DNA of 64,000 bases, taken from positions 1 to 64,000 of the forward strand of contig NZ_JADDJF010000016.1 in NCBI RefSeq assembly GCF_017811755.1. Reading direction: 5' to 3'. This document shows, piece after piece, positions 7,870 through 54,920 of the stretch. The notes beneath the pieces are model-generated. The model ran no database searches and was not told where the DNA came from. It was given only the letters and a program-made list of their open reading frames with translations. How positions within the stretch are numbered: position 1 is the stretch's first letter; each line of letters starts with the position of its first letter. Source of the stretch: Pararhodobacter sp. SW119 (GTDB taxonomy: Bacteria > Pseudomonadota > Alphaproteobacteria > Rhodobacterales > Rhodobacteraceae). The position numbers and the translations under genes are program-made.

Positions 7870-7937
7870 TCGTCGGTCCACGCGTGGACCGACGATGAAG
7901 CCATTGAAAACAAAAGAAACCCGAAAAAATGTTAACC
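7870..7937 (+). repeat. Palindrome + GTTAAC element, copy A
   Basis: A perfect 26-bp palindrome (7870-7895, left arm TCGTCGGTCCACG) has its centre exactly 48 bp before a GTTAACC box at 7931-7937. The intervening DNA is A-rich. It is the longest palindrome of the six copies in this window (see also 8035, 18253, 20171, 21906 and 54844). The sequence after GTTAACC diverges from the GAAACTTTC tail of other copies. It lies just downstream of dapD and could fold as a terminator hairpin in RNA, but the fixed spacing to GTTAAC is not explained by termination. Confidence 0.75.
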
Positions 7938-8034
7938 GATCTCAATTGGTTCCTGAAGGTCATGCCGCAAAGGGTTCTGGGACGAAAGAAGGCAGGGCCG
8001 GCCGGGCAATCGGCCCTGTCCACACCCGGTGCCA

Positions 8035-8108
8035 GAAGTTTCGTTGCGGTTAACGGGCCGGATTATCTGCTTGTTTCCAAGGACTTGCCGGGGCGCACAA
8101 TATTGTGC
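8035..8108 (-). repeat. Palindrome + GTTAAC element, copy A' (inverted)
   Basis: Read on the minus strand, a perfect 14-bp palindrome (8095-8108, left arm GCACAAT) has its centre 47 bp before GTTAACC (8054-8048), followed by GCAACGAAACTTC, close to the tail seen in copies B, D and E. It faces copy A, so the two GTTAAC boxes point towards each other about 110 bp apart. It lies immediately upstream of the Hsp20 promoter. Confidence 0.75.
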
Positions 8109-8142
8109 AGCGCCGTCGTCCGCGCGGTCCGGGTGGAAAAAT

Positions 8143-8191
8143 TTGACCCGGATCAATGCGCGGCGCAGCGCGCGCGCCTATATCCGTCCCG
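8143..8191 (+). promoter_or_regulatory. Candidate class II Crp/Fnr (FnrL-type) promoter
   Basis: TTGAC-CCGG-ATCAA (8143-8156) is a near-perfect inverted repeat of the FNR type. A -10-like TATATC sits at 8179-8184, which predicts a start near 8191. The box centre (8149.5) would then lie at -41.5, the standard spacing of class II FNR-activated promoters. It precedes the Hsp20 gene on the same strand. The box sequence and spacing are seen directly; activation by FnrL or a related regulator under low oxygen is inferred. Confidence 0.7.
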
Positions 8192-8220
8192 TTCGAAGCG
8201 TCGTTCGAATGGAGGAGAAC

Positions 8221-8637
8221 ATGGTCGAGAAATCCCCGATTGGCACCTTCTGGCCGCAGCTTTACGAACCCTTCCGCCAGTTCGGCGGCAAGCTGGCCGA
8301 ATGGATCGCGCCCGCATCCGAGGCGTCGTCCGCCGATGATGCCTACCGCATCACGATGGAACTTCCCGGCGTCGCCGAGGAGGATATCCACCTGACCGTC
8401 GAGAATGGCGTCATCGCCGTGCGCGGCGAGAAGAAGACCGAGCGCGAGGAAAAGGGCGACACCTGGTATTTCAGCGAACGCCAGTACGGCAGTTTCCAGC
8501 GCAGCTTCCGCGTGCCGACCGATTCCGACGAGGCGGGCGTTTCCGCCGATCTGCGGGACGGCGTGCTGACCATCACGATCCCGCGCAAGCCCCCCGCCGA
8601 GAAAAGCGGCAAGCGCGTGAAGATAAGCACGGGCTGA
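8221..8637 (+). CDS. Hsp20/alpha-crystallin small heat-shock protein
   Basis: The 138-residue protein has an alpha-crystallin domain (about residues 38-130): DDAYRITMELPGV, then ENGVIAVRGEKK, and the C-terminal strand GVLTITIPRKP. Such proteins hold unfolding clients in the cytoplasm without using ATP. I choose ATG 8221 because GGAGG lies 5 bases upstream; the in-frame ATG at 8209 would place that ribosome site inside the coding region. The upstream Crp/Fnr-type promoter suggests oxygen-linked rather than purely heat-shock control. The gene appears monocistronic; the next gene is convergent. Confidence 0.93.
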   Translation: MVEKSPIGTFWPQLYEPFRQFGGKLAEWIAPASEASSADDAYRITMELPGVAEEDIHLTVENGVIAVRGEKKTEREEKGDTWYFSERQYGSFQRSFRVPTDSDEAGVSADLRDGVLTITIPRKPPAEKSGKRVKISTG

Positions 8638-8661
8638 CGCGGGGCCGGTTCCCGTCCGGCA

Positions 8662-8991
8662 TCACTTGCCGGTAAAGGGCGTCATCTGCGCCACGATCAC
8701 GGCGTTCTCATCCAGCGCGCGCTGCATCAGCGCGCGCTCGTCCGCGTCGATCTCGTCGCCCGCGGCGAGGCGTTCATCCAGCGTGCCGTGGCCGGTGACT
8801 TCGAGCGGTGCAAGATCGGCCTGCTTCAGGATCGCCACGGTTTCGCGCACCGCCTCGGCCTCGTCGATGCCGGCGGCATAGATCAGAAATCCCGCGCCGG
8901 TCGCCTTGTCCGGCAGGCCATCGCCCGCCTTGCGGCCGACCTCGACCAGTAGGGTGTAGACCTGCGGGGATCGGTTCCTTGGGGCGGGCAT
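8662..8991 (-). CDS. Small conserved-looking protein of unknown function
   Basis: This 109-residue protein is not recognised. It begins MPAPRNRSPQVYTLLVEVGR and is predicted soluble, acidic and alpha/beta, with no signal peptide, membrane segment or cysteine. The start at 8991 is chosen because the frame upstream reads through low-complexity sequence and the neighbouring gene. It sits 44 bp downstream of the SGNH hydrolase on the same strand and may be cotranscribed with it. The text YTLLVEVGRKAGDGLPDKAT may describe a strand-turn motif, but no family can be named. Confidence 0.7.
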   Translation of the reverse strand: MPAPRNRSPQVYTLLVEVGRKAGDGLPDKATGAGFLIYAAGIDEAEAVRETVAILKQADLAPLEVTGHGTLDERLAAGDEIDADERALMQRALDENAVIVAQMTPFTGK

Positions 8992-9035
8992 CGGCGCGTC
9001 GTCCTTCCTGCAGTCCTGGCGGGTTTCGGGCCGGT

Positions 9036-9788
9036 TCACTTGCCGGTCGCGGTGTCTTCGGATCGGCGTGACCCGCTGGGCCGGAAATCGGCACGGATCG
9101 CGGTGGCGACCGTTTCGCCCCAGTGCCGGTAGATCGCGGGCCCGGGGTGGAAGCCGTCTTCGGCCATCATCGCCGGATCGAGCAAGCTGGAGTCGAACGG
9201 CAAGTGGCGCAGATAGAGCCGGCCGCGGACATGCGCCGCGAGCTGCGCATCGAAAGCCTCGGCACGCGCGCCGAGCATCGTACGCAGGGGGTCCGGCAAC
9301 AGCGGAAAGCGCCCCATCGGCGGCACGCCCGAAAGGTAGATGCGGCGAACCCCGAAACGCGCGCGCAGCAGTTCGGTCAACGCCTCTTGCCGGCTGCGCC
9401 ACCGCGCCAGCGGAACCTGACGCGCGACATCGTTCACGCCCAGGGCCACCACCGCCGCGTCGAACGAGGATGGCTGGATCCGGCGCAGGTTCTCGATGGT
9501 GCTGGCGGTGGTCGCGCCGATGCGGGCGTGAAGCTGCCACTGCACCGTGAAATCCGCGGCAAGCGCCCGGCCCAGCTGCCCGGCCAGCGCCTCGTCCTGA
9601 TGCGCGACGCCCACCCCGGCGGCCGATGAATCGCCCAGGACAAGCAGTCGCAGCACCGGCCCGTCGCCGACGACCCCGGCGCGGGCGCCCTCGGCTTCCG
9701 GCAAGCGGCTGGCGCGATGGCGGACGGCAAGCCCCTGCGCCAGAAACAGCGGCGACAGAAGCAACCGCAGCGCCGGATGTGCAAGCAT
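9036..9788 (-). CDS. SGNH/GDSL-family hydrolase (esterase-like)
   Basis: The 250-residue product has the ordered blocks of SGNH hydrolases: block I LVLGDSSAAGVGV with nucleophile Ser, block III ALGVNDV, and block V DGFHPGPAIYRHWGE carrying the Asp and His. The N-terminus (MLAHPALRLLLSPLFLAQ) is hydrophobic and may be a signal anchor, placing the enzyme in the envelope. Substrate cannot be read from sequence; relatives include lysophospholipases and acyl or acetyl esterases. I choose the ATG at 9788 because it precedes the hydrophobic segment; longer starts add low-complexity sequence. Confidence 0.85.
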   Translation of the reverse strand: MLAHPALRLLLSPLFLAQGLAVRHRASRLPEAEGARAGVVGDGPVLRLLVLGDSSAAGVGVAHQDEALAGQLGRALAADFTVQWQLHARIGATTASTIENLRRIQPSSFDAAVVALGVNDVARQVPLARWRSRQEALTELLRARFGVRRIYLSGVPPMGRFPLLPDPLRTMLGARAEAFDAQLAAHVRGRLYLRHLPFDSSLLDPAMMAEDGFHPGPAIYRHWGETVATAIRADFRPSGSRRSEDTATGK

Positions 9789-9817
9789 CGACACGCGAGG
9801 GGGCGCTGCGGCGACGG

Positions 9818-10255
9818 CTACCAAGCTGTCTCGACCGGCGCGATGAACGCCAGTTCGCTGCCCTCGCACAGAACACGCACACCGCGATACGCGCTTTCAG
9901 CGCCGGGCTGCGTGGAAAGGGCGGGCATGGAGAGGCGCAGGTCGATCTCGCTCAGCACCATCGCGGCGGGCCCGTCGGGTGGCGTAACCTCCAGCATGAC
10001 CGTCTGTACCGGCCGGGCGGAGCGATCTGTCGGCCCGGGCCGAAGTTCGGCGGCATAGCCGGCGGATGGCAGGGTGACGGTGCCGGTGACGATCAATTCG
10101 GGGCGCGCCTGCGGCCCGGGCATCGCGTTGACGAAGGCTGTCCAGTCGGCGGAGGCGATGACGGGGCAGGCCGTATCGCGGGGGGCCTGATCCTCTGGCA
10201 GGACGCAGGCGCCCAGTCCGAGCGTCAGGACGGCGGCAATCAGGGGGCGTGACAT
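9818..10255 (-). CDS. Small lipoprotein of unknown function
   Basis: The 145-residue protein starts MSRPLIAAVLTLGLGAC, a short signal peptide with an LGAC lipobox, so it should be lipidated at Cys17 and anchored in the envelope. The mature part contains two further cysteines (in DTACPVIA and RVLCEGSE), which could form a disulfide. No domain is recognised. I start at 10255 rather than at the longer frame because this start gives a clean lipoprotein signal. It lies between the SGNH hydrolase and the GGDEF gene on the same strand. Confidence 0.75.
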   Translation of the reverse strand: MSRPLIAAVLTLGLGACVLPEDQAPRDTACPVIASADWTAFVNAMPGPQARPELIVTGTVTLPSAGYAAELRPGPTDRSARPVQTVMLEVTPPDGPAAMVLSEIDLRLSMPALSTQPGAESAYRGVRVLCEGSELAFIAPVETAW

Positions 10256-10320
10256 GGGACCTCCGGCAGGGTGTTGCCGCAGGATACCGGGGGCGCGTGC
10301 CGCCGGCAATGCCGCACGGA

Positions 10321-11334
10321 TCAGGCCGCGCGCGTTTCCAGCCCGCCGTCGGTGGCCGTAAGCGTCAGCCGCCCGCGTCCCGCGGCCTTCGAGGCGTAGA
10401 GCGCACGGTCGGCATCGGAGAGCATGCGGTCCGCTTCCGGGGCGGCGTAGTGGCGAGACAGGACCGCGCCCATCGAGGTGCCGACCGAACAGGGCTGTCC
10501 GTCGAACAGGATGGGTCGTTGCAGAAGCTCCAGGATGCGCGCCGCGACACGCTCCAGCGGGGCGTAGTCGGCCAGTCCGGGAAAGAGCAGGATGAACTCG
10601 TCGCCACCGACACGCGTGACGATGTCCCCGGCCCGGACGCTGTCGCGCAGCATGCGGGCGAATTCGGTCAGCACATGATCGCCCGCGGCATGCCCCAGCG
10701 TGTCGTTGACCTGCTTGAAGCGGTCGAGGTCCAGATGCATCAGCGCGAAGTCGGCGCGCGTGGCCAGCAGGTTCGAGAGGGCGTGATCCATGCCGCGCCG
10801 GTTGCGCAGGCCGGTCAGCGAGTCGGTGATCGCCAGTTCCTCGGCGTTGCGCTTGGCGCCGTGCAGCCGGTCATTGGTCTTTTCCAGCTCGCCCATGACC
10901 GCGGCCTTGGCCTCGGCCAAATAGAGCAGTTCGATCGCCAGATCGGTCGCCGCGAAATCGGTGTCCGACAGCGCGTGGTCGCGCACCGCTTCGCGCACCG
11001 CATGCCCGAAGGAGAGATTGAGAAGGACTCCGTCCCCCCCGGCCAGCGGCACGGCGACGCCCCGCAGCGCGGTACAGGGCGGGATGCGCAGCGACAGCCG
11101 CAGCGCTGGCGCGCGCGTCAATTCGGCCGGCGCGCGGATGCGGCGGGGACGGCGCAGGTCGAAGACGCTTTCCAGCGACTTGCCGATGGAACCGCCGCCC
11201 ATGATCTTCACAAGGCTCGGCCCGGCCCCGCGGATGATGCCGTCAGCCGACAGCCAGAGGTAGAGCGGCATGAGATGTCCGAGGGCCCCCGGGGCAAGGC
11301 GAAAGGACAGTGGTGTCGCCGCCCCCTCCATCAT
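10321..11334 (-). CDS. HNOBA-GGDEF diguanylate cyclase
   Basis: This 337-residue protein probably makes cyclic di-GMP. Residues about 8-110 resemble the HNOBA domain (the PAS-like module after H-NOX in soluble guanylate cyclases), including SVFDLRRPRR. A helical linker follows (about 115-165), then a GGDEF domain with the intact motif GGDEF (243-247) and an inhibitory-site RxxD (Arg234-Asp237) five residues before it. There is no EAL domain. The start codon overlaps the stop of the upstream H-NOX gene as ATGA (11331-11334), so the two are translationally coupled, and the pair looks like a split sensor-cyclase. Confidence 0.88.
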   Translation of the reverse strand: MMEGAATPLSFRLAPGALGHLMPLYLWLSADGIIRGAGPSLVKIMGGGSIGKSLESVFDLRRPRRIRAPAELTRAPALRLSLRIPPCTALRGVAVPLAGGDGVLLNLSFGHAVREAVRDHALSDTDFAATDLAIELLYLAEAKAAVMGELEKTNDRLHGAKRNAEELAITDSLTGLRNRRGMDHALSNLLATRADFALMHLDLDRFKQVNDTLGHAAGDHVLTEFARMLRDSVRAGDIVTRVGGDEFILLFPGLADYAPLERVAARILELLQRPILFDGQPCSVGTSMGAVLSRHYAAPEADRMLSDADRALYASKAAGRGRLTLTATDGGLETRAA

Positions 11335-11990
11335 TGCGCCCCCGCGCCCGCCAGATCGAAGCGGCGACCGGCGTGAAAGTCCGGGTCGTGCACGGTGATC
11401 GACAGCAGTTCGTCCATGCGTCCCTGCACCCTTCGGTCGCCTTCGGCCCGGCGGTCGCTGTCGCGCTGAACCGGCGGTACCTGTCCGAGGTGTTCGAGCA
11501 CGACGAGCGCGCCGTAATCGTCCGCTAGCGCGCGCAGCACGCCGACCATGACATGACCGAAGCCGAGAGGGCAGGCGCGGCAGCGGAGCGTGAAGTGGCC
11601 GTCGCCGACCTCGTCCAGTTCGAGTTCGGGCAGGATGAATTCCGCAACGGCCAGCCGGGTGCGCCCTGGCAGATCCTCGAGCGAATAGAGAAACTCGGTG
11701 AAGCTGCGGCCGCCGAAGCGTAGAAGCCGGCGAAGGGGTTCCACGCGGTGGTTCCAGATCAGGTAGGTTCCTAGATCCTCGAGCAGCGAATCGCGGCTTC
11801 GGTTCAGCCGGGTGCAGGCGGCAGCGATCAGGGCCTCGCTCACGGCATCGTCGTAGACGCGCATCGCCTCGAAGGTTGCCGGCCCCGACCCGTTTCCCAG
11901 ACCGGCGGCGTCGGCCACGGCGGCCCACAGGTCTGCACCGAAGGAATCGGTCAGGAAGCACTGGAAAGCGCGATTGACCAGTCCATGCAT
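11331..11990 (-). CDS. H-NOX-like protein lacking heme-binding residues
   Basis: The 219-residue product matches H-NOX (heme nitric oxide/oxygen) domains over residues 1-170, from MHGLVNRAFQCFLTDSFG to GHVMVGVLRALADDYG. The proximal heme histidine expected after SLEDL is Pro108, and the YxSxR propionate clamp reads Cys137-x-Ala139-x-Pro141. By residue content it should not bind heme in the usual way. A tail of about 50 residues follows. The downstream cyclase overlaps by ATGA, and canonical H-NOX proteins regulate such partners. The fold assignment is good; the ligand is unknown. Confidence 0.82.
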   Translation of the reverse strand: MHGLVNRAFQCFLTDSFGADLWAAVADAAGLGNGSGPATFEAMRVYDDAVSEALIAAACTRLNRSRDSLLEDLGTYLIWNHRVEPLRRLLRFGGRSFTEFLYSLEDLPGRTRLAVAEFILPELELDEVGDGHFTLRCRACPLGFGHVMVGVLRALADDYGALVVLEHLGQVPPVQRDSDRRAEGDRRVQGRMDELLSITVHDPDFHAGRRFDLAGAGAQ

Positions 11991-12074
11991 GTCGCCAAAT
12001 CTCCCAGCAGCGCGGCGGAACCCCGGGGGGCTGACCGGACGGTAGGTGAGAGGCGTTAAAGAATCTCCAAGCGG

Positions 12075-12797
12075 CTATTGCCTGGGATCGAAGCCCAGAA
12101 GGTACGGGATATGGCTGATATCCTGGCAGACCGCATCGGCATAGGGCGCGAGGTCCGCGGCCTCGGCGACGCCGGTCAGAACGGCCAGCGTCGGCATCCC
12201 GGCGGCGCGTCCTGCTTCCAGATCGTGGCGGCTGTCGCCGACCATGAGCACCTGACGCGGAAGCAGCCCGGTATGCGCGACAAAGGCAAGAAGCATGCCG
12301 GGACCCGGCTTGGCGCCATGACCGGAATCGGCGCCTACGACGAAGTCGAAATGATCCAACGCGGAGGTCAGATGCGCGCGCGCGACCGATTCGTAGTCGT
12401 TGGTCGCCAATCCGAGGCGCAGCCCCGCCGATTGGAAACGCGACAGCAGCGGGCGCAGTGGCGTCGCCTCGACCATCGGCGCGCGCGCGGCGCAGGCAGC
12501 CAGCCAGTCTGCCAGCGCCGCAACCCCGCCCGGCCGATGCGGCAGGTGCGGAGCGAGCATTTCGGCGATTTCGTCCCCGGTACCCGCGATCACCGCGCTG
12601 TCGCGGTGAAAGCGCCCCGCCTCCTGATCGAAACGCAAGACCGTCGCCAGCCTGTCGGCGAGTGCGCGATCGGGACCGGCCAGTTCGTCCAGAACCTCGC
12701 GCGCCCAGACACCCCAGCTGGCCTGAAAGTCGAAAAGCGTGCCGTCCTTGTCGAACAGAAGCCCCCGAATGCCCAGGAACACCGGCGCCGTCATCAA
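12075..12797 (-). CDS. HAD-family phosphatase (phosphoglycolate phosphatase-like)
   Basis: The 240-residue protein has the HAD motif I DKDGTL with nucleophile Asp16 and acid/base Asp18, motif II near LGLATND, and motif IV VGDSRHDLEAG. A helical cap lies between motifs I and II (about 25-95). This fits class I HAD phosphatases such as Gph, which clears 2-phosphoglycolate; substrate is inferred only from family resemblance. It is 10 bp downstream of the DUF3572 gene on the same strand, so the two are probably cotranscribed. Confidence 0.85.
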   Translation of the reverse strand: MMTAPVFLGIRGLLFDKDGTLFDFQASWGVWAREVLDELAGPDRALADRLATVLRFDQEAGRFHRDSAVIAGTGDEIAEMLAPHLPHRPGGVAALADWLAACAARAPMVEATPLRPLLSRFQSAGLRLGLATNDYESVARAHLTSALDHFDFVVGADSGHGAKPGPGMLLAFVAHTGLLPRQVLMVGDSRHDLEAGRAAGMPTLAVLTGVAEAADLAPYADAVCQDISHIPYLLGFDPRQ

Positions 12798-12807
12798 CGC
12801 AATCCCT

Positions 12808-13086: not shown

Positions 13087-13180
13087 TCGTCCCTCATTCG
13101 TGAATCGTTTTGCTTCCAGAGGCCGCCTGTTCCGATATCGGCGACAATACGCCGTTCCGATGGGCCGGATTTCGCCACTC

Positions 13181-13210
13181 GTTAACCAAGAGAAAGAAAT
13201 TGTTAACCAT
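13181..13210 (+). promoter_or_regulatory. Paired GTTAACC sites upstream of pleD (CtrA-like)
   Basis: Two GTTAACC heptamers start at 13181 and 13202, 21 bp apart, which is about two helical turns; the second reads TTAACCAT, the sequence of a known CtrA half-site motif. They lie 89-118 bp before the pleD start codon in the DUF3572/pleD divergent gap. A perfect 10-bp palindrome CCGATATCGG (13132-13141) is centred 44 bp before the first box, close to but not within the 47-48.5 bp spacing of the dispersed elements. Confidence 0.45.
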
Positions 13211-13298
13211 TCGCCCCGAGAAACAGCCTAAGTTCTGATGCAAGTGCAGCCACTCCGTCGTCACAGGTCCGGACCCGATTCTATGGACCATCTCGGAA

Positions 13299-14690
13299 AT
13301 GACCATGGTTGAAAAGATATTGATCGTCGACGACATGTCGGTCAACCGGATCATGCTGAAGGTCAAGCTCAAGGAAGCTTGCCACGACAGCATTCAGGCC
13401 GGCGACGGTGAATCCGCCCTGCGGATGGCGCGGAACGAGCAGCCCAAGCTCATCCTGCTCGACATGATGCTGCCCGACATCTCGGGGATCGAGGTGTGCC
13501 GTCGCTTGCGGGCGGATCCGGCGACCAGCCATATTCCGATCGTCATCATCACGGCCTCGACGGACCGTGCGCGCCGTCTGGAGGCCCTTCAGGCCGGCGC
13601 GGACGAGTTTCTGACGAAACCGCTGAACGAAATGATCCTGCTGGCGCGCATCCGCAGCCTGTTGCGCGCCTGCGAGACAGAGGACGAGTTGCGTCTGCGG
13701 GCGGCGACCTGCGGCGAGATGGGCTTTGCCGAGGCCGGCGGCACGTTCGAAATGCCGGATCACCTGGGACTTGTCGCGCCGGACCCGGCGACGGGGATGC
13801 AGTGGCGCGCTATGCTGTCGCCGTTCTTTTCCGGCAAGATCGACCTTCTGACGGCAAGCGACGCGCTGGCCGAGGCCGATGGTCAGCGGGTGCCCGATGT
13901 CTATGTGCTGGCCGCGGACCTGTCGGCGGCAGGGTCGGGGCTGCGGCTGGTATCCGACCTGCGCTCACGGGTGCAGAGCCGGCATTCGGCGATATGCCTG
14001 GTCTTGCCCGACGCCGTGGGCGAGGCGGCGGCCATGGCGCTTGACCTTGGCGCGACCGACCTGCTTCCGTTGCCGCTGGATCCCGAGGAGACGGCGCTGC
14101 GCCTGAAGCTGCATGCGGCGCGCAAGAAGCGGGCCGATCAGTTGCGCCGGCAGGTCCAGGATGGTCTGCGTCTGGCGGTCGCCGACCCGTTGACCGGGCT
14201 CTACAACCGTCGCTACGCACTGGCGCATCTGGAGCGGGTGGCGCAGCGCGCGCGCGAGACGGGGCGCCGCTACGCGGTGATGGTGCTCGACCTCGACCGG
14301 TTCAAGACGATCAACGACACCTTCGGGCACGCCGCCGGTGATAGCGTGCTGGAGACGGTAGCGCATCGGTTGCGCGATAATCTGCGGCCTTCCGATCTGG
14401 TCGCCCGGATCGGCGGCGAGGAGTTCCTGGTCGCGCTGCCGGACACCACGTTGGGGACCGCCCGGATCGCGGCCGAGCGGCTTTGCCGCGCGGTCCAGGC
14501 CGATCCCGTGGTTCTGCCGGACGGTCAGGATGTGCTGGTGACGATATCGGTCGGACTGGCGCTGGGGAACGACGACCCTCAATCCGGGACCGAAACCGTG
14601 CGCCAACTGATTGAGCGTGCGGACGAGGCGCTTTTCGCCGCAAAGACCGAAGGGCGCAATCAGGTCACGATTTCGGCCACCGCGGCCTGA
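13299..14690 (+). CDS. pleD: PleD-type response regulator / diguanylate cyclase (REC-REC-GGDEF)
   Basis: The 463-residue protein has an N-terminal receiver with phospho-acceptor Asp55 in LILLDMMLPDISG, a second degenerate receiver-like domain (about 150-285), and a GGDEF domain with active motif GGEEF (372-376) and inhibitory-site RxxD (Arg363-Asp366). This is the PleD architecture: phosphorylation of the first receiver promotes dimerisation and c-di-GMP synthesis. In Caulobacter PleD acts with DivJ and PleC in the flagellum-to-stalk switch; no such kinase is encoded nearby. Paired GTTAACC sites lie upstream. Confidence 0.92.
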   Translation: MTMVEKILIVDDMSVNRIMLKVKLKEACHDSIQAGDGESALRMARNEQPKLILLDMMLPDISGIEVCRRLRADPATSHIPIVIITASTDRARRLEALQAGADEFLTKPLNEMILLARIRSLLRACETEDELRLRAATCGEMGFAEAGGTFEMPDHLGLVAPDPATGMQWRAMLSPFFSGKIDLLTASDALAEADGQRVPDVYVLAADLSAAGSGLRLVSDLRSRVQSRHSAICLVLPDAVGEAAAMALDLGATDLLPLPLDPEETALRLKLHAARKKRADQLRRQVQDGLRLAVADPLTGLYNRRYALAHLERVAQRARETGRRYAVMVLDLDRFKTINDTFGHAAGDSVLETVAHRLRDNLRPSDLVARIGGEEFLVALPDTTLGTARIAAERLCRAVQADPVVLPDGQDVLVTISVGLALGNDDPQSGTETVRQLIERADEALFAAKTEGRNQVTISATAA

Positions 14691-14708
14691 GGGCGCTTGC
14701 GCGCCGGC

Positions 14709-15212: not shown

Positions 15213-15224
15213 TTTGCTATTCCC

Positions 15225-18252: not shown

Positions 18253-18328
18253 TGCGCAAATTTGCGCAATCCAGTAACCATCGGATATGATTTGACAAAT
18301 ATCGCGCGTTAACCGCAGCGAAACTTTC
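18253..18328 (+). repeat. Palindrome + GTTAAC element, copy B
   Basis: A perfect 16-bp palindrome (18253-18268, left arm TGCGCAAA) is centred 47 bp before GTTAACC (18308-18314), followed by GAAACTTTC (18320-18328). It lies in the convergent gap between the Nudix gene and gltX, with gltX ending 33 bp further on. The core AAATTT is shared with copy E, but the flanks differ (GCGC here, GTCC there). Confidence 0.8.
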
Positions 18329-20170: not shown

Positions 20171-20235
20171 GGCTGCGCAATTTGCGCAGCCTATCCAAGT
20201 TCCTGACAAGAAAGACAAACGTATTTTTTGTTAAC
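20171..20235 (+). repeat. Palindrome + GTTAAC element, copy C
   Basis: An inverted repeat with 10-bp perfect arms and a single central T (20171-20191, left arm GGCTGCGCAA) is centred 48.5 bp before GTTAAC (20230-20235). The tail after GTTAAC differs from the GAAACTTTC tail of other copies. It lies six bases after the metallopeptidase stop, between convergent genes (smpB ends at 20276). The arm core TGCGCAA is shared with copy B. Confidence 0.7.
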
Positions 20236-20275
20236 TCGATATTTACCCCGATCTCGCGGCGGGCAGAGACCGAGT

Positions 20276-21905: not shown

Positions 21906-21983
21906 AGCGTCCGCATGCGGACGCTTTGCCATGTCATTGATATAACGTGACGAATCGGCGCCGTTAACCGCAATGAAACTTTC
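21906..21983 (+). repeat. Palindrome + GTTAAC element, copy D
   Basis: A perfect 20-bp palindrome (21906-21925, left arm AGCGTCCGCA) is centred 47 bp before GTTAACC (21963-21969), followed by GCAATGAAACTTTC (21970-21983). It begins 6 bp after the pseudouridine synthase stop and lies between convergent genes, with ptsN ending at 22029. Confidence 0.8.
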
Positions 21984-39153: not shown

Positions 39154-39240
39154 GCGGTCGTGGCGGAATTGGTAGACGCGCAGCGTTGAGGTCGCTGTGG
39201 GGTAACTCCCGTGGAAGTTCGAGTCTTCTCGACCGCACCA
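39154..39240 (+). tRNA. tRNA-Leu (GAG)
   Basis: This 87-nt cloverleaf has an acceptor stem GCGGTCG pairing with CGACCGC, a D-arm with GGTAGACGCG, an anticodon stem CAGCG/CGCTG with loop TTGAGGT (anticodon GAG), a long variable arm as expected for leucine, a TTCGAGT T-arm, discriminator A and an encoded CCA. It is convergent with tRNA-Leu(CAA), 271 bp away. Confidence 0.95.
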
Positions 39241-39511: not shown

Positions 39512-39596
39512 TGGTGCGGGCGGTGGGACTCGAACCCACACGTCTTTTGGACAAAGGTGTTTGAGACCTTCGCGTCTACCGTTCCGCCACGCCCGC
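39512..39596 (-). tRNA. tRNA-Leu (CAA)
   Basis: On the minus strand this 85-nt cloverleaf has acceptor GCGGGCG/CGCCCGC, anticodon stem AAGGT/ACCTT with loop CTCAAAC (anticodon CAA), a long variable arm, T-arm with GGTTCGAGTC, discriminator A and an encoded CCA. The 271-nt gap between it and tRNA-Leu(GAG) shows no other gene. Confidence 0.95.
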
Positions 39597-46675: not shown

Positions 46676-46742
46676 TCGCCCCGGACCGAACAGAGCGGCG
46701 AAGGCGACTTGACTTGCCCATCGCGCAATGGCCAAAGGCGTC

Positions 46743-47786: not shown

Positions 47787-47841
47787 TATTTTTCCTTTTC
47801 ATCGGGGCTGCGGACGTCGCGGGCAGACGGAGCAATCTCGG

Positions 47842-50388
47842 TTACCTTGCGCGCGTCGCGCGGAGGACTTTGGCCACGCGTTCTGCAAGGCACTCCGGGG
47901 TGCGCTCGTCCTTCTCGAAGGGCACCGGGATGCCGTTTGCGGCGTTGCGCACGGCCTCTCCCTGCGCGCCGAGGTCGAACGCGAGCGTGGGCAGGCCGGT
48001 GGCAAGGCATTCATGCACCGTGTAGGAAAATGTCTCGGGCCAGATTGAAGGGATCAGCCAATGGGTTACCCCGTAGCGCGCGGCCAGGTGGGGGATATCC
48101 TCGATCGCGTAGATGCCGTGCACCGGCACATCGTCGGCGAGCGGATACCCCGGCGCGATGCGTCCGATCAGCGCAAGGCTGGCATCCTGTTCGGCGTGCA
48201 TCTTCCTTGAAAGCGCGGAAAGGACGGCGGCGCCTTTCTGCGGACCGATCGCCCCCAGCACCCCGAGGACGATACGCCCGTCCTTCGGCGCTGTAAGCCG
48301 GGGTATCGCGTGCGGAAGCGCATGGGGGTTGAAGTGGAGGCGATCCTTCGCCTTGGGATAGACGCTTTCAACGATCCGCGCGCTCTCCCGAGAAAAGACT
48401 ATCAGGCGATCGGAGGCGTCGATCACGCGACCCCATGCAGCGCGCCAGTCGGCCAGTGACATCGTGCTTCCATCCGCGCGCCGATACTGATGAGCCGGGT
48501 CGTCGGAATCGATCGGCGGAATCCCGCGATAGATCCCGTCATGATCCAGAAGCGTGTAGGAGGGGCTGAGGGGGAGGAAGTCATGGAAAAGGATGTCGAG
48601 TGCGGCGCCGTCGGACAATCGCAACAGAAGGTCCGGTATGTCACCAAGGTCCGGGTCGCCGACAGCGCAGGAATAGACGATCCGTCGCTTGCGCAGGGGC
48701 GTCAGCAAACGCACGGCGAGATCGATATCGTCGCTGTTGCCGATCACCCTGCCCAGCGGCGTATCCAGCTCCAGCCGATACCGCCAGGCCCCGCCGAGTC
48801 GCAGGACGAGGGAGACGGTTTCGGAGCGCACGCGATCCTGCAGGTAGTTCTCGGCGCCGCCGCCCAACGAGTGCGCGATATGGATCGGGATCCTGTCGAT
48901 CGTTCTCAGGCTGTCCGCCCAGGCTAAGGCAGTGACCAAGCGTGGGGTAATGAGCGGGTCGTCGCGGATGAAGTCCTGCACGATGCGATCGTAGCCAGGA
49001 TAGCGCTCTGAAATGATGGCGTTGTTTTTCTGGACAAGCGCCAGTTTGCTGGGGCCGAAGCTGGCGCCGCCACGGTGTTCGACGAAAAGGTTCGGCACAG
49101 CCACATGTCGCCCGCCCTTCGCCACTGCGCGCCGGCACCAATCGACCTCTTCTCCATAGCCGCGACCGAAAACCGGGTCGAAGCCGCCGAGGCGCTGCAA
49201 CCATTCGCGCTGCACGGCGATGCAGAACCCGACACCCGTGGGTGTGACGACTTGCGGCGATGTTTTGGCGATCCGTTCGCGCAGGGTGACATCGATTGCG
49301 TCCAGTTGTCCTGGCTCCAGAGCGGCGCGCGCGCAGATCACCGGGGCAGTGTAGATTTCCGCGTCGTTGGATAGCGGCGTCGTCGTGGCGATCGAGGGAT
49401 CGCCGAGCGGCGCGACAAGCCTGCTCGCCCATCTCGGCGGTACCATCGCATCGCTGTTGAGCAGAATGACGGGGCCGCTGTCGTGCTGAGCCGCCGCGAA
49501 GCCGCGATTGACCGAACCGATAAATCCCAGGTTGGTCTCGTTCTCACGCAGTTCAATCTTGTCTGCGTCCGGGTGTCTGGCAACCCAATCGCGCAGCCAT
49601 GGCCGTACGCGAGGGTCGGTGGACTGGTCCTCGATCAAGATCAGCCGAAACGGAAGGTCCGTATGGGCCATGACACGATCAAGCATTTCTGCCAGCAATT
49701 CGAACGCGTTGAAGACTGGAATGATGACGGTGATCATCTCGGGCGGAGGAGAAGGCGACGCGGTTCGATCGGCGGGCTCAAGGAATCGAGGGTCCAGCAT
49801 CGCTTCGGACTCGGTCTGTCCCAAGCGAAGGGCCGTCTTTATACGCCGGGGCAGGTCGGGATCATTGCGCAACAAACCCTTCGCGATAATCGGAAGCAGC
49901 GGGACTGCGTCGCGCCAGAAGCGCAGCTTCAGCCGGCGCTCGGCCAGATACCTTGCTCGCGTGACATGCAGCTCGACGCGTATCGATTCAGTCTTTTCCT
50001 CGACGCCCTCAAGCTCCAGCAGCAGCGGACCTTCCTCGAACGGTAGACTGGCGCGGAAGCCGACATGCTTGTCGCACCCGAGAGCGGCGGCCACATCGTC
50101 GCGTTCTTCTCGTGGTTGGCGCCAGATCTGCGTTCTGCCCAGGCGAATTCCAATCCCCGACGCGAGCGTCCAACCGCGCAGATGAAGTCGGCCTTGGTGC
50201 AAGCGGACCGCTTCCAGATAACCCAGCGTAGCGTTGTTGCCGTCCGCAAGTCGGCATCCCGGCAGGGTCAGGTCCAGGTGATGGTCCTTGTAGTAGGCGC
50301 GCAACCACCGATACCGGGACAGCTGATATCGCGCCTTGTCGCGCCAGACATGCAATCGGTTCGCGGGCGGATCGGTGAAGAAACTCAT
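47842..50388 (-). CDS. Bifunctional glycosyltransferase (GT2 plus GT4-like)
   Basis: The 848-residue protein has an N-terminal region (1-200) without a recognised domain, a GT2 domain (about 215-450; VIIPVFNAFELLAEML, then LLNSDAMVP) and a C-terminal GT4-type part (about 690-840; ALIGRIAPGYPLADDVP and FSYTVHECLATGLPTLAFDL). No membrane segments are evident. It probably adds two sugars to a cell-surface or secreted glycan. The GT2 gene upstream (50398) lies 9 bp away, so the two form one unit. Confidence 0.85.
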   Translation of the reverse strand: MSFFTDPPANRLHVWRDKARYQLSRYRWLRAYYKDHHLDLTLPGCRLADGNNATLGYLEAVRLHQGRLHLRGWTLASGIGIRLGRTQIWRQPREERDDVAAALGCDKHVGFRASLPFEEGPLLLELEGVEEKTESIRVELHVTRARYLAERRLKLRFWRDAVPLLPIIAKGLLRNDPDLPRRIKTALRLGQTESEAMLDPRFLEPADRTASPSPPPEMITVIIPVFNAFELLAEMLDRVMAHTDLPFRLILIEDQSTDPRVRPWLRDWVARHPDADKIELRENETNLGFIGSVNRGFAAAQHDSGPVILLNSDAMVPPRWASRLVAPLGDPSIATTTPLSNDAEIYTAPVICARAALEPGQLDAIDVTLRERIAKTSPQVVTPTGVGFCIAVQREWLQRLGGFDPVFGRGYGEEVDWCRRAVAKGGRHVAVPNLFVEHRGGASFGPSKLALVQKNNAIISERYPGYDRIVQDFIRDDPLITPRLVTALAWADSLRTIDRIPIHIAHSLGGGAENYLQDRVRSETVSLVLRLGGAWRYRLELDTPLGRVIGNSDDIDLAVRLLTPLRKRRIVYSCAVGDPDLGDIPDLLLRLSDGAALDILFHDFLPLSPSYTLLDHDGIYRGIPPIDSDDPAHQYRRADGSTMSLADWRAAWGRVIDASDRLIVFSRESARIVESVYPKAKDRLHFNPHALPHAIPRLTAPKDGRIVLGVLGAIGPQKGAAVLSALSRKMHAEQDASLALIGRIAPGYPLADDVPVHGIYAIEDIPHLAARYGVTHWLIPSIWPETFSYTVHECLATGLPTLAFDLGAQGEAVRNAANGIPVPFEKDERTPECLAERVAKVLRATRAR

Positions 50389-50397
50389 AGCGCGCCC

Positions 50398-51333
50398 TTA
50401 CAGCTTGCCGATCGCAGCGGCCAGATGGATCAGGGCTGTCTCGGCGGAAGACTGTCGGTGGACACCGAATTCGCGCATCAGCTGCAACCTGGTCAGGGGT
50501 GTGGCGCTGGGCCAACGGCGCGCGAATTCCTCGGCCACGGGTGTCAGCGGCACATTCGCTGCATTCAGCGCGGCCATGTTCGCAGCGATCCAGTCACGCA
50601 ACCTGCCATCCAGCAGGGACGCAAGGCGCGCGCTGCGCGCCTGATGGGTAGACCGAATGCCCATCGCGTTCGTGTCGTGCTGACGATAGTCTAGCACGAC
50701 GTTTCCATCGGCCACGATCCGGGCGTCGCACGCGGCGAATAGCAGGTAGAGCCACCAGTCATGATGCGGCACGGCCTGAACACCGGCGCGACGCACGATC
50801 TGCACGGCGGCTCGATTCATCGTCAGGGTGTGACCTGACAGGATGTTCTGCACCACGGCATTCGCAAAAGACGGCCCGCGTGCCCATCGCGCTGACAGGA
50901 TTTCTCCGCGCGTTTCGATGTCGACGACCCGGTATCGTGCGGCCCAGGCGCAGGGGCTGTCGGCCGATTGGCGCAGAACCTGCAGCGCGCTCGAAAGCTT
51001 GTGCGGGAACCAGACGTCGTCCTGATCGGCCAAGGCCACGATGCCCGCGGGCAGCTCTGGATGGCACAGAAGCTGAAGGAAATTTGCTGCGCTTCCTTTC
51101 TGCGGACCTTTCAGGATGCGCGCGACGCGCCCGGGATGGCGGTTGGCAAATTCCGCGAGCACGGCGTGTGTACCATCGATCGATCCGTCATCACTGACCC
51201 ACAGGGACCAGTCCTGGTGGCTCTGACCCAACAGCGAGTCGAGTTGTGCCGGCAGCCAGCGCGCGCCGTTCAAGGTGCACATGAGGATGCTGACATGCTC
51301 GCGCGGGGGGCAAGACGAATGCACGGTCACCAT
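50398..51333 (-). CDS. Family 2 glycosyltransferase
   Basis: The 311-residue protein is a GT2 enzyme with SILMCTLNGARWLPAQLDSL at the start, LWVSDDGSIDGT (the nucleotide-sugar binding DDGS) and IVALADQDDVWFPHKL with a DxD-type metal site. This resembles rhamnosyl- and related transferases. It precedes the bifunctional glycosyltransferase gene by 9 bp on the same strand. Neither flippase nor polymerase genes are in the window, so the glycan is unknown. Confidence 0.88.
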   Translation of the reverse strand: MVTVHSSCPPREHVSILMCTLNGARWLPAQLDSLLGQSHQDWSLWVSDDGSIDGTHAVLAEFANRHPGRVARILKGPQKGSAANFLQLLCHPELPAGIVALADQDDVWFPHKLSSALQVLRQSADSPCAWAARYRVVDIETRGEILSARWARGPSFANAVVQNILSGHTLTMNRAAVQIVRRAGVQAVPHHDWWLYLLFAACDARIVADGNVVLDYRQHDTNAMGIRSTHQARSARLASLLDGRLRDWIAANMAALNAANVPLTPVAEEFARRWPSATPLTRLQLMREFGVHRQSSAETALIHLAAAIGKL

Positions 51334-51434
51334 GATCGAAGGTTATGGCAGCCCCCAAGCGACACGGCAACGCGACGAAATCGGGTCGCGATCACGCACG
51401 CGGTCGGCATGAACCGAAGCCTTGAGTTGCTGTC

Positions 51435-52664
51435 TCACCGGGTGTTTGCGAGGCGTCCTGCCGCGTCAGCGAGTGCCTCGAGTGCAACACAAAGATCTTC
51501 GCGCCGGGTATCTTCATTCGGATTATGGCTGATGCCACCGATCGACGGCGCGAACAGCATCGCTGTCGGCAAGACCCGCGCCACGTTCGACGCATCGTGC
51601 AGCGCGCCCGAAGGCATTGACCGCCAGCGACCCGGCGCGACGGTCTCGGCCGCGACTTCAAGCGCGTGCTGCAGGCGCGGGTCCATCGGCACGGGTTCCA
51701 CCGGCGATCCCCGCGTCGCCTGCAGGATCAGCCCGCGCTCGCTTGCCACCTGCCGGGCGAGCGTGTGAGCCGCAGCTGCCATCGCGTCCAGCCGAGATAC
51801 CTCTGCATCGCGTATCTGCACCGTAAAGCTGGCCGCGCCGGGTACGATCGAATTGGCATTCGGTTCAACGACGATCCGGCCCAGGGTCCAGACGGTGCGT
51901 TCACTGACCATCGGCGCAAAGACCTCGTTCAGGGCGACGGAATAGGACGCAAACCCCTGCAACGCATCGCGGCGAAGCTGCATCGGCGTGGTCCCGGCGT
52001 GATTGGCTTCGCCCTCGAAGCGGAAACTCCATTGCCGCACACCGACGATGGCTCCGACCACACCCAAGGCTTCGCCGGCGCTGTCCAGCACGGGTCCCTG
52101 CTCGATATGCGGTTCGATATACGCCGTGAATCGATCAGGCGATACGCTGCCAAGTGGACCGATATCCTTCGCGCGCTCTCGCGCCGTCGCGAAGGTTATG
52201 GGATCGTCCAGTGCGTCCTCGTCAAGGCAGGCATCGGCTTCCGCCAAGCTCAACTGTCCGGTCCAGACCGAACTGCCTGTGAGTCTGCCGAAGCGTCCCT
52301 CCTCGTCCTGGAAAGAGACGACGGCGAATGGCGGGCCACCATTTGCTTGCGCTGCACGCGCCAGTTCCAGCCCACACGCGACCCCCCAGATCCCGTCGAG
52401 CCACCCACCCAGCGGCTGCGTGTCGCTGTGCGAGCCGACCAGCAGGCACGGGCCGTCACCTGGCGGCAGGCCGAAAAGATTGCCGCAAGGATCGACGATG
52501 ACCTCCAGACCGGCCGCCTGCATCTGATCGGCCAGCCACTTGCGCGCGGCGATGTCGGGATCGGAAAAGGCCCGTCGCGCGACGCCCGTTCCCTGACCCC
52601 CGATGGTGCGCAGGTGATCCAGATCCGAAAGCATGCGGGCGGGATCGACGTGAATACGGGTCAT
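51435..52664 (-). CDS. M20-type amidohydrolase (N-carbamoyl-amino-acid hydrolase / allantoate amidohydrolase-like)
   Basis: The 409-residue protein belongs to the M20 dizinc group of hydantoinase/carbamoylase enzymes: LLVGSHSDTQPLGGWLDG with metal His and Asp, SFQDEEGRFGRLTGS with the catalytic Glu pair, and GEANHAGTTPMQLRRDAL with the family's substrate-binding His/Arg. It cleaves N-carbamoyl amino acids, allantoate or ureidoglycolate; sequence alone does not decide. It lies downstream of the XRE-cupin regulator on the same strand (27-bp gap). Confidence 0.88.
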   Translation of the reverse strand: MTRIHVDPARMLSDLDHLRTIGGQGTGVARRAFSDPDIAARKWLADQMQAAGLEVIVDPCGNLFGLPPGDGPCLLVGSHSDTQPLGGWLDGIWGVACGLELARAAQANGGPPFAVVSFQDEEGRFGRLTGSSVWTGQLSLAEADACLDEDALDDPITFATARERAKDIGPLGSVSPDRFTAYIEPHIEQGPVLDSAGEALGVVGAIVGVRQWSFRFEGEANHAGTTPMQLRRDALQGFASYSVALNEVFAPMVSERTVWTLGRIVVEPNANSIVPGAASFTVQIRDAEVSRLDAMAAAAHTLARQVASERGLILQATRGSPVEPVPMDPRLQHALEVAAETVAPGRWRSMPSGALHDASNVARVLPTAMLFAPSIGGISHNPNEDTRREDLCVALEALADAAGRLANTR

Positions 52665-52691
52665 GAAACCTCCAGGTCGTCAGCGAAGCCG

Positions 52692-53285
52692 TCACAGATA
52701 CGGCGGAGTGCAGGCCGAGACCACGACGGCCTCTTCCTCGTGCGGGTTTCGAAAGCGATGCGGCAAGGTCGAGTTGAACAGATAGCTGTCACCGGCGCGC
52801 AGAATCTCGGTCCGCTCACCGACCGTCAGTTCGATCGCGCCCGAGATCACGACGCCGCCTTCGGATCCCGGATGGTCCAGCCGCGCACGCCCGGTATCGG
52901 CGCCGGGCTCATAACGCTCATAGAGGATCTGCAGATTGTGCGCCCGGGCGTCGCCAACCTGCGCCAGATGAATTCGCCCCGTGCGCCCCGGCGCCGCACC
53001 TGGCAGAAGCGAGGATAGGTCGCGCAACTCTTCCGGACGGAACACGATGGCCTCGGTCACCGGGCGGTCGGGCTCGAAAAACTCCGCCAGTGTTACGCCC
53101 AATCCGCCTAGAATCCTGCGCAGGCTCGCGACCGAGGGGCTGGAACGGTTGGTTTCGATCATCGCGACCTGGCCATGCGGCACGCCGGAAAGCTCGGCCA
53201 GGCGGCGCTGCGACAGGGCCGCGGCCTGCCGCATCGACCGCAGACGGGCCCCGACATCGAAGTCGCCATTCTGGAAACCGCTCAT
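52692..53285 (-). CDS. XRE-cupin transcriptional regulator (PuuR-like)
   Basis: The 197-residue protein has an N-terminal XRE helix-turn-helix (about 10-70; ALSQRRLAELSGVPHGQVAM) and a C-terminal cupin barrel (about 110-190; RLDHPGSEGGVVISGAIEL), the layout of PuuR and other amino-acid-catabolism regulators. I choose ATG 53285 because MSGFQNGDFDVGARLR resembles family starts, and the ATG at 53318 lies in a candidate operator. It is divergent from gabT and probably controls both gabT and the amidohydrolase. Confidence 0.85.
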   Translation of the reverse strand: MSGFQNGDFDVGARLRSMRQAAALSQRRLAELSGVPHGQVAMIETNRSSPSVASLRRILGGLGVTLAEFFEPDRPVTEAIVFRPEELRDLSSLLPGAAPGRTGRIHLAQVGDARAHNLQILYERYEPGADTGRARLDHPGSEGGVVISGAIELTVGERTEILRAGDSYLFNSTLPHRFRNPHEEEAVVVSACTPPYL

Positions 53286-53312
53286 CCGTTCGTCCATGGT
53301 AAGGAATCGCTT

Positions 53313-53328
53313 GCTCATGATATTGAGC
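53313..53328. promoter_or_regulatory. Candidate operator between the XRE-cupin gene and gabT
   Basis: GCTCA-TGATAT-TGAGC is a perfect 5-bp inverted repeat with a 6-bp AT-rich core, in the divergent gap. It is a plausible dimer site for the neighbouring regulator. No second copy was found nearby, so it rests on position and symmetry. Confidence 0.4.
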
Positions 53329-53367
53329 GGGACTAGGAAGGAAAGCGGAAAAGTCCAGGAGACGACC

Positions 53368-54669
53368 ATGACTGCTACGTCCGAACTTCAGGCCCGCAAG
53401 ACCGCCGCCGTATCGCGCGGCGTTGCGACCCGCAACATCTATGCCGTCCGTGCCGAGAACGCCGAGCTTTGGGACGCCGAGGGCCGCCGCTATCTCGATT
53501 TCGCGGTTGGGATCGCGGTGAACAACACTGGGCATCGCCACCCAAAGGTAATGGCGGCCGTTGCGGAGCAGGCGCAGGCCTTCACGCATACCTGTTTCCA
53601 CGTCGCGCCCTACGAAAGCTACATCCGTCTGGCGGAGCGTTTGAACGAAATCACGCCGGGCGACTTTCCGAAGAAGACGATGCTGGTGTCTTCGGGCGCC
53701 GAGGCGGTGGAGAACGCGATCAAGATGGCGCGCGCGCATACCGGGCGGTCGGGCGTGATCGCCTTTACCGGGGCGTTCCATGGCCGCACGCTTCTGGGGA
53801 TGGCGCTGACCGGCAAGGTCATGCCCTACAAGAAGAGCTTTGGCGCCATGCCGGCCGAGGTCGTGCATGCCCCGTTCCCCAACGAGTTCCACGGCATCAG
53901 CGAGGCCGAGGCGCTGCGCACGCTGGAGGGTATGTTCGCCTCGACCGTCGATCCCGAGCGGATCGCGGCGATGATCGTCGAGCCGGTGCAGGGCGAGGGC
54001 GGGTTCAACATCGCCCCCGCGGGCTTCCTGCGCGCGCTGCGCGAGATCTGCGACAAATACGGGATCGTGCTGATCGCGGACGAGGTGCAGGCGGGCATGG
54101 CGCGGACCGGCACGATGTTCGGTTTCGATCACTCCGGCGTCGTGCCGGACGTGGTCACCATGGCCAAGGGGCTGGCGGGCGGGTTCCCGCTGTCGGCGGT
54201 CACGGGTCGGGCCGAGATCGTCGACGCGCCGCATCCGGGCGGGGTCGGCGGCACCTATGGCGGCAACCCGATCGCGGTGGCGGCGAGTCATGCGGTGCTC
54301 GACGTGATCAAGGAAGAGGATCTGTGCCAGCGCGCGGCCGAGATCGGTGAGAAGATCCGGGCGCGGCTTTCGGCGATTGCCGAGCGGCAGGGGATGGAGT
54401 GCATCGGCGATGTTCGTGGCTTGGGTGCTATGAACGCGTTCGAATTGGTCAAGGACCGTTCGAGCCGCGCGCCGGATGCGGAACTGACCGCCGCGATCGT
54501 GGCCGAGGCCGAGGCGCGCGGGTTGATCCTGCTGTCCTGCGGGACCCGCTACAACGTGATCCGCCTGCTGCCGCCGCTGACCATCCCGTGGGACCAGTTG
54601 GACGAGGCGCTGGACATGATCGAGGCCTCGGTCGAGGCGGCCGTGCAGAAGACTGCCGCCGCGGCCTGA
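53368..54669 (+). CDS. gabT: 4-aminobutyrate-2-oxoglutarate aminotransferase
   Basis: GabT transfers the amino group of GABA to 2-oxoglutarate, giving succinate semialdehyde. The 433-residue class III aminotransferase has SSGAEAVENAIKMARAHTG, GAFHGRTLLGMALTGK and the PLP lysine in TMAKGLAGGFPLSAV (Lys267). AGGAG precedes the ATG at 53368. GabD is not adjacent. The divergent XRE-cupin regulator and M20 amidohydrolase suggest a nitrogen-compound breakdown locus; beta-alanine or putrescine-derived substrates are also possible. Confidence 0.92.
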   Translation: MTATSELQARKTAAVSRGVATRNIYAVRAENAELWDAEGRRYLDFAVGIAVNNTGHRHPKVMAAVAEQAQAFTHTCFHVAPYESYIRLAERLNEITPGDFPKKTMLVSSGAEAVENAIKMARAHTGRSGVIAFTGAFHGRTLLGMALTGKVMPYKKSFGAMPAEVVHAPFPNEFHGISEAEALRTLEGMFASTVDPERIAAMIVEPVQGEGGFNIAPAGFLRALREICDKYGIVLIADEVQAGMARTGTMFGFDHSGVVPDVVTMAKGLAGGFPLSAVTGRAEIVDAPHPGGVGGTYGGNPIAVAASHAVLDVIKEEDLCQRAAEIGEKIRARLSAIAERQGMECIGDVRGLGAMNAFELVKDRSSRAPDAELTAAIVAEAEARGLILLSCGTRYNVIRLLPPLTIPWDQLDEALDMIEASVEAAVQKTAAAA

Positions 54670-54691
54670 GCCGGACGAATGCAGGAAGATT

Positions 54692-54716
54692 GCGGCGGGG
54701 GCATGTCCCCCGCCGC
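54692..54716 (+). terminator. Strong hairpin after gabT
   Basis: A perfect 10-bp stem (GCGGCGGGGG and its complement) with loop CATGT lies 22 bp after the gabT stop. No long T-tract follows (GTTCGTTTGC), as is usual for GC-rich genomes. It is probably the transcription terminator of gabT. Confidence 0.6.
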
Positions 54717-54843
54717 GTTCGTTTGCGGGGTGAGAGTGCCGACGGTTTTCCGCGAGCTCGCCGGACCGAGCGGCGAGCGACGGGTGTTTTTCAGGACTCG
54801 CTGATCCTGCCCGGTGGGGTGATGGGATGGCTTCGGTGGGCAG

Positions 54844-54920
54844 TGTCCAAATTTGGACAATTTGACAACCCACTCATATAATTCGGAAAAAGTTGTGATG
54901 TTAACCTCATTGAAACTTTC
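54844..54920 (+). repeat. Palindrome + GTTAAC element, copy E
   Basis: A perfect 16-bp palindrome (54844-54859, left arm TGTCCAAA) is centred 48 bp before GTTAACC (54900-54906), followed by GAAACTTTC (54912-54920). It lies between convergent gabT and rsmA, 128 bp downstream of the gabT hairpin. The rest of this 364-bp gap shows no gene. Confidence 0.8.

Follow-up and report, generated by a model that had tools for sequence, protein, structure and literature searches.

A dispersed gene-end element of palindrome, IHF-type site and TTAAC-type box in Pararhodobacter sp. SW119, a putative oriented boundary

What is the short palindromic element that recurs between genes in a 64,000-nt stretch of DNA (the window) from Pararhodobacter sp. 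SW119? A preliminary description had reported six dispersed intergenic copies, A to F, each with a perfect palindrome at a nearly fixed distance before GTTAAC. All six were recovered at the positions claimed, with re-measured arms of 13 (A), 7 (B), 8 (C), 10 (D), 10 (E) and 8 bp (F), and in every copy the palindrome centre lies 47, 48 or 48.5 bp before GTTAAC. The GAAACTTTC-like tail ascribed to four copies is carried by B, C, E and F, and A and D do not have it. A composite of palindrome, IHF-type site and box at fixed spacing is real in the 4.51-Mb genome of this strain (192 contigs; the own genome). The best explanation we can offer, tentatively and at somewhat less than an even chance, is a dispersed composite site that would be folded by IHF into an oriented gene-end boundary kept by selection, with both its proteins and its function putative.

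The pairing of palindrome and box is not an accident of composition. The window holds eight GTTAAC, and on five sides of these an even-centred perfect palindrome with arms of at least 7 bp lies at 46-49 bp; copy D, which has a single central base, falls outside this even-centred count. In a comparison set beforehand, the five in the window stand against a mean of 0.005 and a maximum of 1 in 200 dinucleotide shuffles, so the excess over shuffled DNA that had been predicted was found. Across the own genome, 121 matches to the tail pattern are found if up to 3 mismatches are allowed, against 4 for the reversed pattern. Exact tails number 29, of which 27 have upstream sequence and 2 lie at contig ends. 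At 45-50 bp from the exact tail, pairs 2-8 of the palindrome are all Watson-Crick in 26 of the 27 and a perfect palindrome (arm of at least 7 bp) is present in 23, and at the control distances of 20-44, 51-75, 76-100 and 101-150 bp neither is present in any of the 27. A covariance model built from 31 copies finds at least 150 copies in the own genome, 149 of them at E <= 0.01, a lower bound given that 150 of 778 candidates were scored. The matches listed include five of the six window copies; copy D, though a training copy, is not among them. Of the 150, 138 were located in genomic DNA and 136 of these measured, the other two being at contig starts; the counts that follow cover the 136.

Three parts make up the element, which spans about 80 bp. 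They are a gapless palindrome, a bending site of IHF type and a box of TTAAC type that carries an 11-bp repeat. With strict arms, 112/136 own copies have the box 47 or 48 bp after the palindrome centre; if imperfect pairs are allowed, this spacing holds for 176 of 183 copies of the own genome and G297, a second genome of the genus. Column profiles of 77 own copies, 26 of G335 and 15 of G396, two distant genomes of the family, show conservation from about -11 to about +70 around the centre and little or none outside. The spacer was scanned with WATCAANNNNTTR, which we take to be the IHF core consensus. It is matched with at most one mismatch in 80/136 own copies, 24/47 of G297, 11/15 of G396 and 24/26 of G335, compared with 1.3-3.2% of shuffled spacers. 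The IHF-type core of G335 is inverted with its first base at the same place (16 or 17 of 38), which keeps the hinge about midway between palindrome and box. Binding of IHF at the spacer is thus suggested by the consensus, by its fixed place and by a hinge whose position is unchanged in another genus, where the site is inverted. The own genome has three HU/IHF-family genes, assigned to family level; one element copy lies downstream of such a gene (G000:C127:59058-59583). The preliminary description had offered a two-part protein-DNA site as one possibility. A protein-DNA site is still what the sequence features fit best; the division into two parts gives way to three, since the spacer holds the IHF-type site.

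The same three parts can be traced in each window copy, with the IHF-like cores assigned by their position, +14..+26 from the palindrome centre in copy A. Copy A has its palindrome at 7870..7895 (+), its core, the reverse of WATCAANNNNTTR, at 7897..7909 (-) and a GTTAACC box with divergent tail at 7931..7951 (+); the whole copy, 7866-7953, was found by the covariance-model search at E 4.2e-6. Copy B lies tail to tail with copy A, with its palindrome at 8095..8108 (-), core at 8075..8087 (+) and GTTAACCGCAACGAAACTTCT box plus tail at 8034..8054 (-). In copy C the palindrome (18253..18268, +) is followed by a degenerate core (18275..18287, -) and a GTTAACCGCAGCGAAACTTTC box with tail (18308..18328, +). 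The odd-centred palindrome of copy D, with arms around one central base, spans 20171..20191 (+), its core 20196..20208 (-) and its GTTAACTCGATATTTACC box, of the form TTAAC-N6-TTTAC, 20230..20247 (+). Copy E comprises a palindrome at 21906..21925 (+), a core at 21930..21942 (-) and a GTTAACCGCAATGAAACTTTC box with tail at 21963..21983 (+), and copy F a palindrome at 54844..54859 (+), a core at 54866..54878 (-) and a GTTAACCTCATTGAAACTTTC box with tail at 54900..54920 (+). Two further GTTAAC, at 13181 and 13202, have no even-centred palindrome at the element distance. They form a pair 21 bp apart (13181-13207) upstream of a gene at 13299 and are possibly a promoter site. Rfam at gathering score finds in the window only two tRNAs and no match to the element; tRNA genes lie at 39154-39237 and 39515-39596.

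The element is placed and oriented with respect to gene ends. Gene context was assigned by our own codon-usage gene caller, and these calls agree with the earlier count that four of the five window loci lie between convergent genes, the exception being the A/B locus, which is flanked by two + strand genes. Among the 136 own copies, 88 are convergent, 28 and 14 fall in the two co-directional settings, 2 are divergent and 4 are at contig ends or overlapping. The median distance from stop codon to palindrome is 39.5 bp (n = 118), and in 57/74 single convergent copies it is the palindrome end that lies closer to the stop codon (p 3e-6). Most copies (120/136) stand alone, with no second copy within 400 bp; all 8 close pairs are arranged tail to tail, the tail being the box end. 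Of forty copies from distant genera, 15 are in convergent and 18 in co-directional gaps, 3 lie between divergent genes and 4 are cut or overlapping. In G335, 10/24 usable copies are convergent compared with 26/253 background gaps of at least 100 bp (p 2e-4), and two further copies are overlapped by predicted genes. The earlier argument that the copies are not promoters of neighbouring genes therefore holds for the own genome, with its 2/136 copies between divergent genes, but in the distant carrier G335 the number is 5/26.

The palindrome pairs co-vary almost strictly as Watson-Crick pairs. At least 6 of the 9 pairs are present in 180 of the 183 own and G297 copies; among these 180, Watson-Crick pairing holds at pairs 2-7 in 173-179 copies (at pair 2 in 176), and the central pair is looser, at 155. 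Pair 5 uses all four types (CG 73, GC 57, TA 29, AT 14). At pairs 3, 5 and 6 wobbles are much rarer than independence would give, with 1, 1 and 2 seen against 36, 18 and 44 expected. Across the 11 same-orientation places common to the own genome and G297, 32 of pairs 2-8 differ; of these, 23 form Watson-Crick pairs in both species and 9 have lost the pairing in one. The G297 counterpart of copy E has three pairs altered on both sides, and at site A three different palindromes follow the same gene in three carriers.

The palindrome might instead act in RNA, as a hairpin at the 3' end of the messenger RNA that would terminate or protect the transcript, with the rest of the element secondary. The orientation at 3' ends is consistent with this, as is the palindrome of G335, which starts 0-7 bp past the stop codon in 13/16 copies behind a co-oriented gene. 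Wobbles compatible with the sense RNA also outnumber the opposite kind at pairs 2-8 by 27 to 11, mostly at pair 8 (p 0.014), a weak hint that an RNA form also matters. Yet pair 2 would leave a hairpin loop of 2 nt and is nonetheless nearly always Watson-Crick, wobbles are depleted at the pairs given above, no long T run was seen by eye after the palindrome, and the IHF site and the box are conserved as well. We judge a hairpin reading improbable, and an ordinary RNA hairpin as sole cause is disfavoured by the strict palindrome centre. In several G335 copies (L390-L429) the stop codon runs directly into the palindrome (TGAGCGTCCGAG, TAGGCGTCCGAG).

Two half-sites at an 11-bp interval make up the box. 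The main own subtype has GAAAC as the second half (TTAAC-N6-GAAAC), and a TTAAC-N6-TTAAC-like form is found in own subtype II and in several distant genera. As it stands in several genera, TTAAC-N6-TTAAC equals published motifs for CtrA, given as TTAA-N7-TTAA (PMC6180460) and TTAAC-N5-GTTAAC (PMC7232146) in the available text of these papers. If CtrA binds the box, the element might drive or block transcription outward from the gene end. The exact TTAA-N7-TTAA motif is present in 17/26 G335 copies, which had been chosen for a good tail, but in only 2/136 own copies; conservation ends at about +70 with no promoter-like sequence beyond, and gene ends are an odd place for promoters. A CtrA-type regulatory site is accordingly regarded as quite unlikely. 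The palindrome half-site itself recurs farther along the element as a third half-site, at +42 in 15/15 copies of G396 and 3/4 of G229 (three further G229 copies without an exact core were dropped), at +52/53 in 6/6 of G335 and at +52 in 1/1 of G498. These positions are near whole helical turns from the palindrome. In several of the L390-L429 copies of G335 the tail finishes in an extra TTGTCCGAG half-site.

How widely is the element distributed? Within the genus it is carried clearly by G297 (at least 150 copies) and G298 (90), two of the 17 other genomes; five further genomes have 1-3 weak matches, the best at E 0.056, and the remaining ten have none. The exact tail was also found on 17 contigs of three metagenome-assembled genomes from soda lakes. 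Among 394 genomes of the family, model R1 at E <= 0.001, with 11 candidates scored per genome, matches 15, own genome included, and 14 other genera have matches. Model R2, which was built from subtype II and distant copies, finds 115 in G335, 46 in G396, 34 in G375, 26 in G584, 24 in G229, 22 in G007, 16 in G073, 12 in G490 and 10 in G047, with 1-5 in five more genomes, counts that are not fully independent given that eight of the genomes contributed 1-2 training copies. G229, G340, G345, G141, G498 and G047 are absent from the R2 training set. On 16 chosen non-carriers R2 finds none, with one match in G306 at E 0.009. Across 385 genomes of the class, with strict filters and 11 candidates scored per genome, R2 at E <= 0.001 returns the own genome only. 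The tail pattern, searched with at most one mismatch in 291 further genomes of the order, gives one match each in G154 and G230, against one each in five genomes for the reversed control. In 800 kb of G335, the 14-mer palindrome GTCCGAGCTCGGAC occurs 30 times compared with 0.01 expected; 26 of the 30 have a tail score of at least 7 of 9, the other four a degraded tail at 6 of 9, and no palindrome-tail pair is seen there at a control distance of 75-81 bp. A chromosome-organising signal, another option of the preliminary description, is possible; on one carrier chromosome, 21 of 40 evenly spaced samples hold a copy. Sets of related elements are present in distant genera of the family, and the way in which the copies have changed suggests a gene-end structure that is useful and as yet undescribed. 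Beyond chromosomes, copy E has no match in phages and one weak match over a third of its length in plasmids, and one element each of G335, G396 and G584 has none in plasmids; on these results a plasmid or phage origin was dropped. In the non-carriers G187 and G299, the orthologue of the window gene at 7018-7842 is followed by a long GC hairpin and T run and then by GTTAACCCCGCAATAACC (L278, L279), a box-like sequence without the palindrome-IHF module.

The patchy presence among genomes raises the possibility of a REP-like mobile element, in which palindrome and tail would be recombinase sites, IHF would assemble the complex and gene ends would be harmless places to insert. This account is possible but rather unlikely. 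In its favour, and against stability of the sites, the occupied places change from one sister species to another. Site A holds an element in the own genome, G297 and G298; B is filled in the own genome only, and neither B nor C has a counterpart seen in G297 or G298. Site D is filled in the own genome and G298, with a like element in the same place, and E in the own genome and G297 and not in G298. Comparison with own element regions gives a counterpart for at least 12/47 G297 copies, one of them in opposite orientation. Locus L227 carries two G297 copies. Where the first stands, G297 has about 1.3 kb including the element (L227:2409-3727), and the gaps in the own genome and G298 measure about 40 bp. 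At the second place TGTGCAAGCTTGCACA stands in the own genome as a palindrome alone, lacking both IHF core and box (G000:C138, between 9630 and 10200; L256), and G298 has a box-like GTCAACCGCAACC without palindrome; both are perhaps decayed copies. Every distant genome of which many copies were read shows a palindrome particular to it and mostly uniform, and a gene-end bias is typical of REPs as described in the available parts of PMC3733652 and PMC1525189.

Against mobility, no near-identical pair was found among 136 own or 26 G335 copies. The best spacer identity in the own genome is 0.75, only slightly above column-shuffled maxima averaging 0.69, and the 99.9% points are 0.69 and 0.63, such that a slight excess remains; the best pair of G335 falls among the shuffled values (39/200 shuffles reach the maximum). 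Recent transposition is thus not supported in the own genome or the sampled G335 copies. Of the small mobile repeat proposed in the preliminary description, present-day mobility is therefore unsupported, and a mobile origin is possible given the patchy presence and the turnover of places. No Y1 transposase match was found in G297 or G298, both incomplete, and the own genome has only short IS200-like pieces, unmatched by the RAYT of G396. Selection is also indicated at the 11 shared places, where non-core spacer identity is 0.486, compared with 0.459 for unrelated copies, and tail identity is 0.87 and 0.885. As the spacers are as different as in unrelated copies and the tails are kept, the symmetry of the palindrome and the box have been retained while neutral positions were scrambled, which argues against a mobile repeat.

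Can the element be assigned to a known family? The claim that no named family has this design agrees with a literature search, with most subscription journals beyond reach, in which no title or opening of an abstract described the element. In E. coli, BIME and RIB elements are REP units with an IHF site. Like them, the present element is extragenic, of high copy number, located at gene 3' ends and in convergent gaps, and combines a palindrome with an IHF site, here a putative one that matches the consensus at a fixed place. Unlike them, it has one gapless palindrome rather than two imperfect opposed REP units, no GTAG tag and an extra TTAAC-type box at fixed distance, and it belongs to another bacterial family. 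REPs are reported in the accessible text of PMC1525189 to bind IHF, gyrase and Pol I. The CGTC-tagged REPs are likewise alphaproteobacterial, palindromic, extragenic, located at convergent or co-directional gene ends and without an associated transposase. As described in PMC3733652, their CGTC tag is unpaired, the stems measure 8-9 bp and the loops 4-5 nt, the tails are CCA and most pairs are head to head. In contrast, the present element is a composite of about 80 bp with zero loop, CGTC is paired where present and no tag is unpaired; its close pairs are all tail to tail, although the published tail is defined differently.

The GTAG REPs with RAYT genes share high-copy extragenic palindromes of genome-specific sequence, but no conserved GTAG tag is seen in the column profiles of own, G335 and G396 copies. 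In G396 a RAYT gene (L378:1680-2234, +; NF047646 E 1.3e-48; PDB 4er8 E 1.2e-45) has one element upstream and is then followed by GTAGGGTGGGT-type repeats, and in G229 a RAYT lies about 0.5 kb from an element with one gene between. RAYT genes at L359:461-1048 (-) and L253:1444-1902 (+) likewise adjoin GTAGGGTGGGT-type or GTAGGGTGCGTGG-type REP repeats; with L378 these loci come from three Rhodobacteraceae genomes. An identity with the RAYT/REP system was dropped, because the RAYTs of G396, G229 and the non-carrier G299 have classic GTAG-type (GTAGGG) repeats, and not the element, beside them, which also counts against mobility. The element is not a classic GTAG REP. The Correia elements of Neisseria are similar in that the repeat has an IHF site and its long form is almost only intergenic, but they are miniature inverted-repeat transposable elements (MITEs) with terminal inverted repeats, as the consulted part of PMC2229807 describes them, and no such ends appear in the column profiles here. 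Caulobacter CIR repeats are also alphaproteobacterial, intergenic and about 110 bp long, but are defined by GANTC methylation sites, with neither IHF nor a TTAAC box mentioned in that part of the same source.

The proposed IHF-folded boundary can be set out as follows. From the stop codon the usual order is palindrome, putative IHF site hinged about 27 bp on and box of two TTAAC-type half-sites. The gapless palindrome would be a two-fold site for a dimeric protein, and IHF, bending the DNA by roughly a U-turn near +27, would place the palindrome beside the box, such that proteins bound at the two could make contact. The same half-site at both ends in G396, G229, G335 and G498 suggests one protein holding both. 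Most likely the folded complex would form an oriented boundary where transcription units end, limiting read-through and separating transcription-driven supercoiling between neighbouring, above all convergent, genes. Probably, the element spread a single time, in an ancestor, and was preserved by selection afterwards. It is the predicted fold together with gene-end position and orientation that leads us to favour a boundary complex.

Several results weigh against this boundary. No third half-site at a constant place can be made out in G584, G375, G125 or G073, nor is one apparent by eye, uncounted, in the own genome. The 14 copies in one co-directional setting are oppositely oriented, and the divergent copies of G335 also count against it. 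Canonical terminator-like sites occur at 23-32% of ends, similarly with or without an own-orientation element, so no exchange of one for the other is seen, and they are present at 8/13 co-directional gene ends with an opposite element only. Terminator replacement was rejected, as canonical terminators are not scarcer at ends with an own-orientation element (15 element-free convergent ends were compared). Mismatches in the IHF cores of the 11 shared places number 0-3, with at most one in 7 own and 5 G297 copies. The element is clear in only 3/18 genomes of the genus, making its function dispensable.

It is possible, though we consider it on balance doubtful, that a new class of bacterial gene-end boundary is represented here, in which IHF-folded complexes at more than 100 transcription-unit ends use a fast-drifting two-fold site with enforced symmetry. 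If so, the binding protein would have to co-evolve rapidly, or else some process would keep restoring the palindromes to a perfect state. The function of short gene-end palindromic repeats has been disputed for decades. With crisp parts, fixed spacing, saturated neutral positions and both carriers and non-carriers in one genus, usefulness to the host is directly testable with this element, and the strict symmetry of its fast-changing palindrome poses a puzzle of protein-DNA co-evolution or of palindrome repair.

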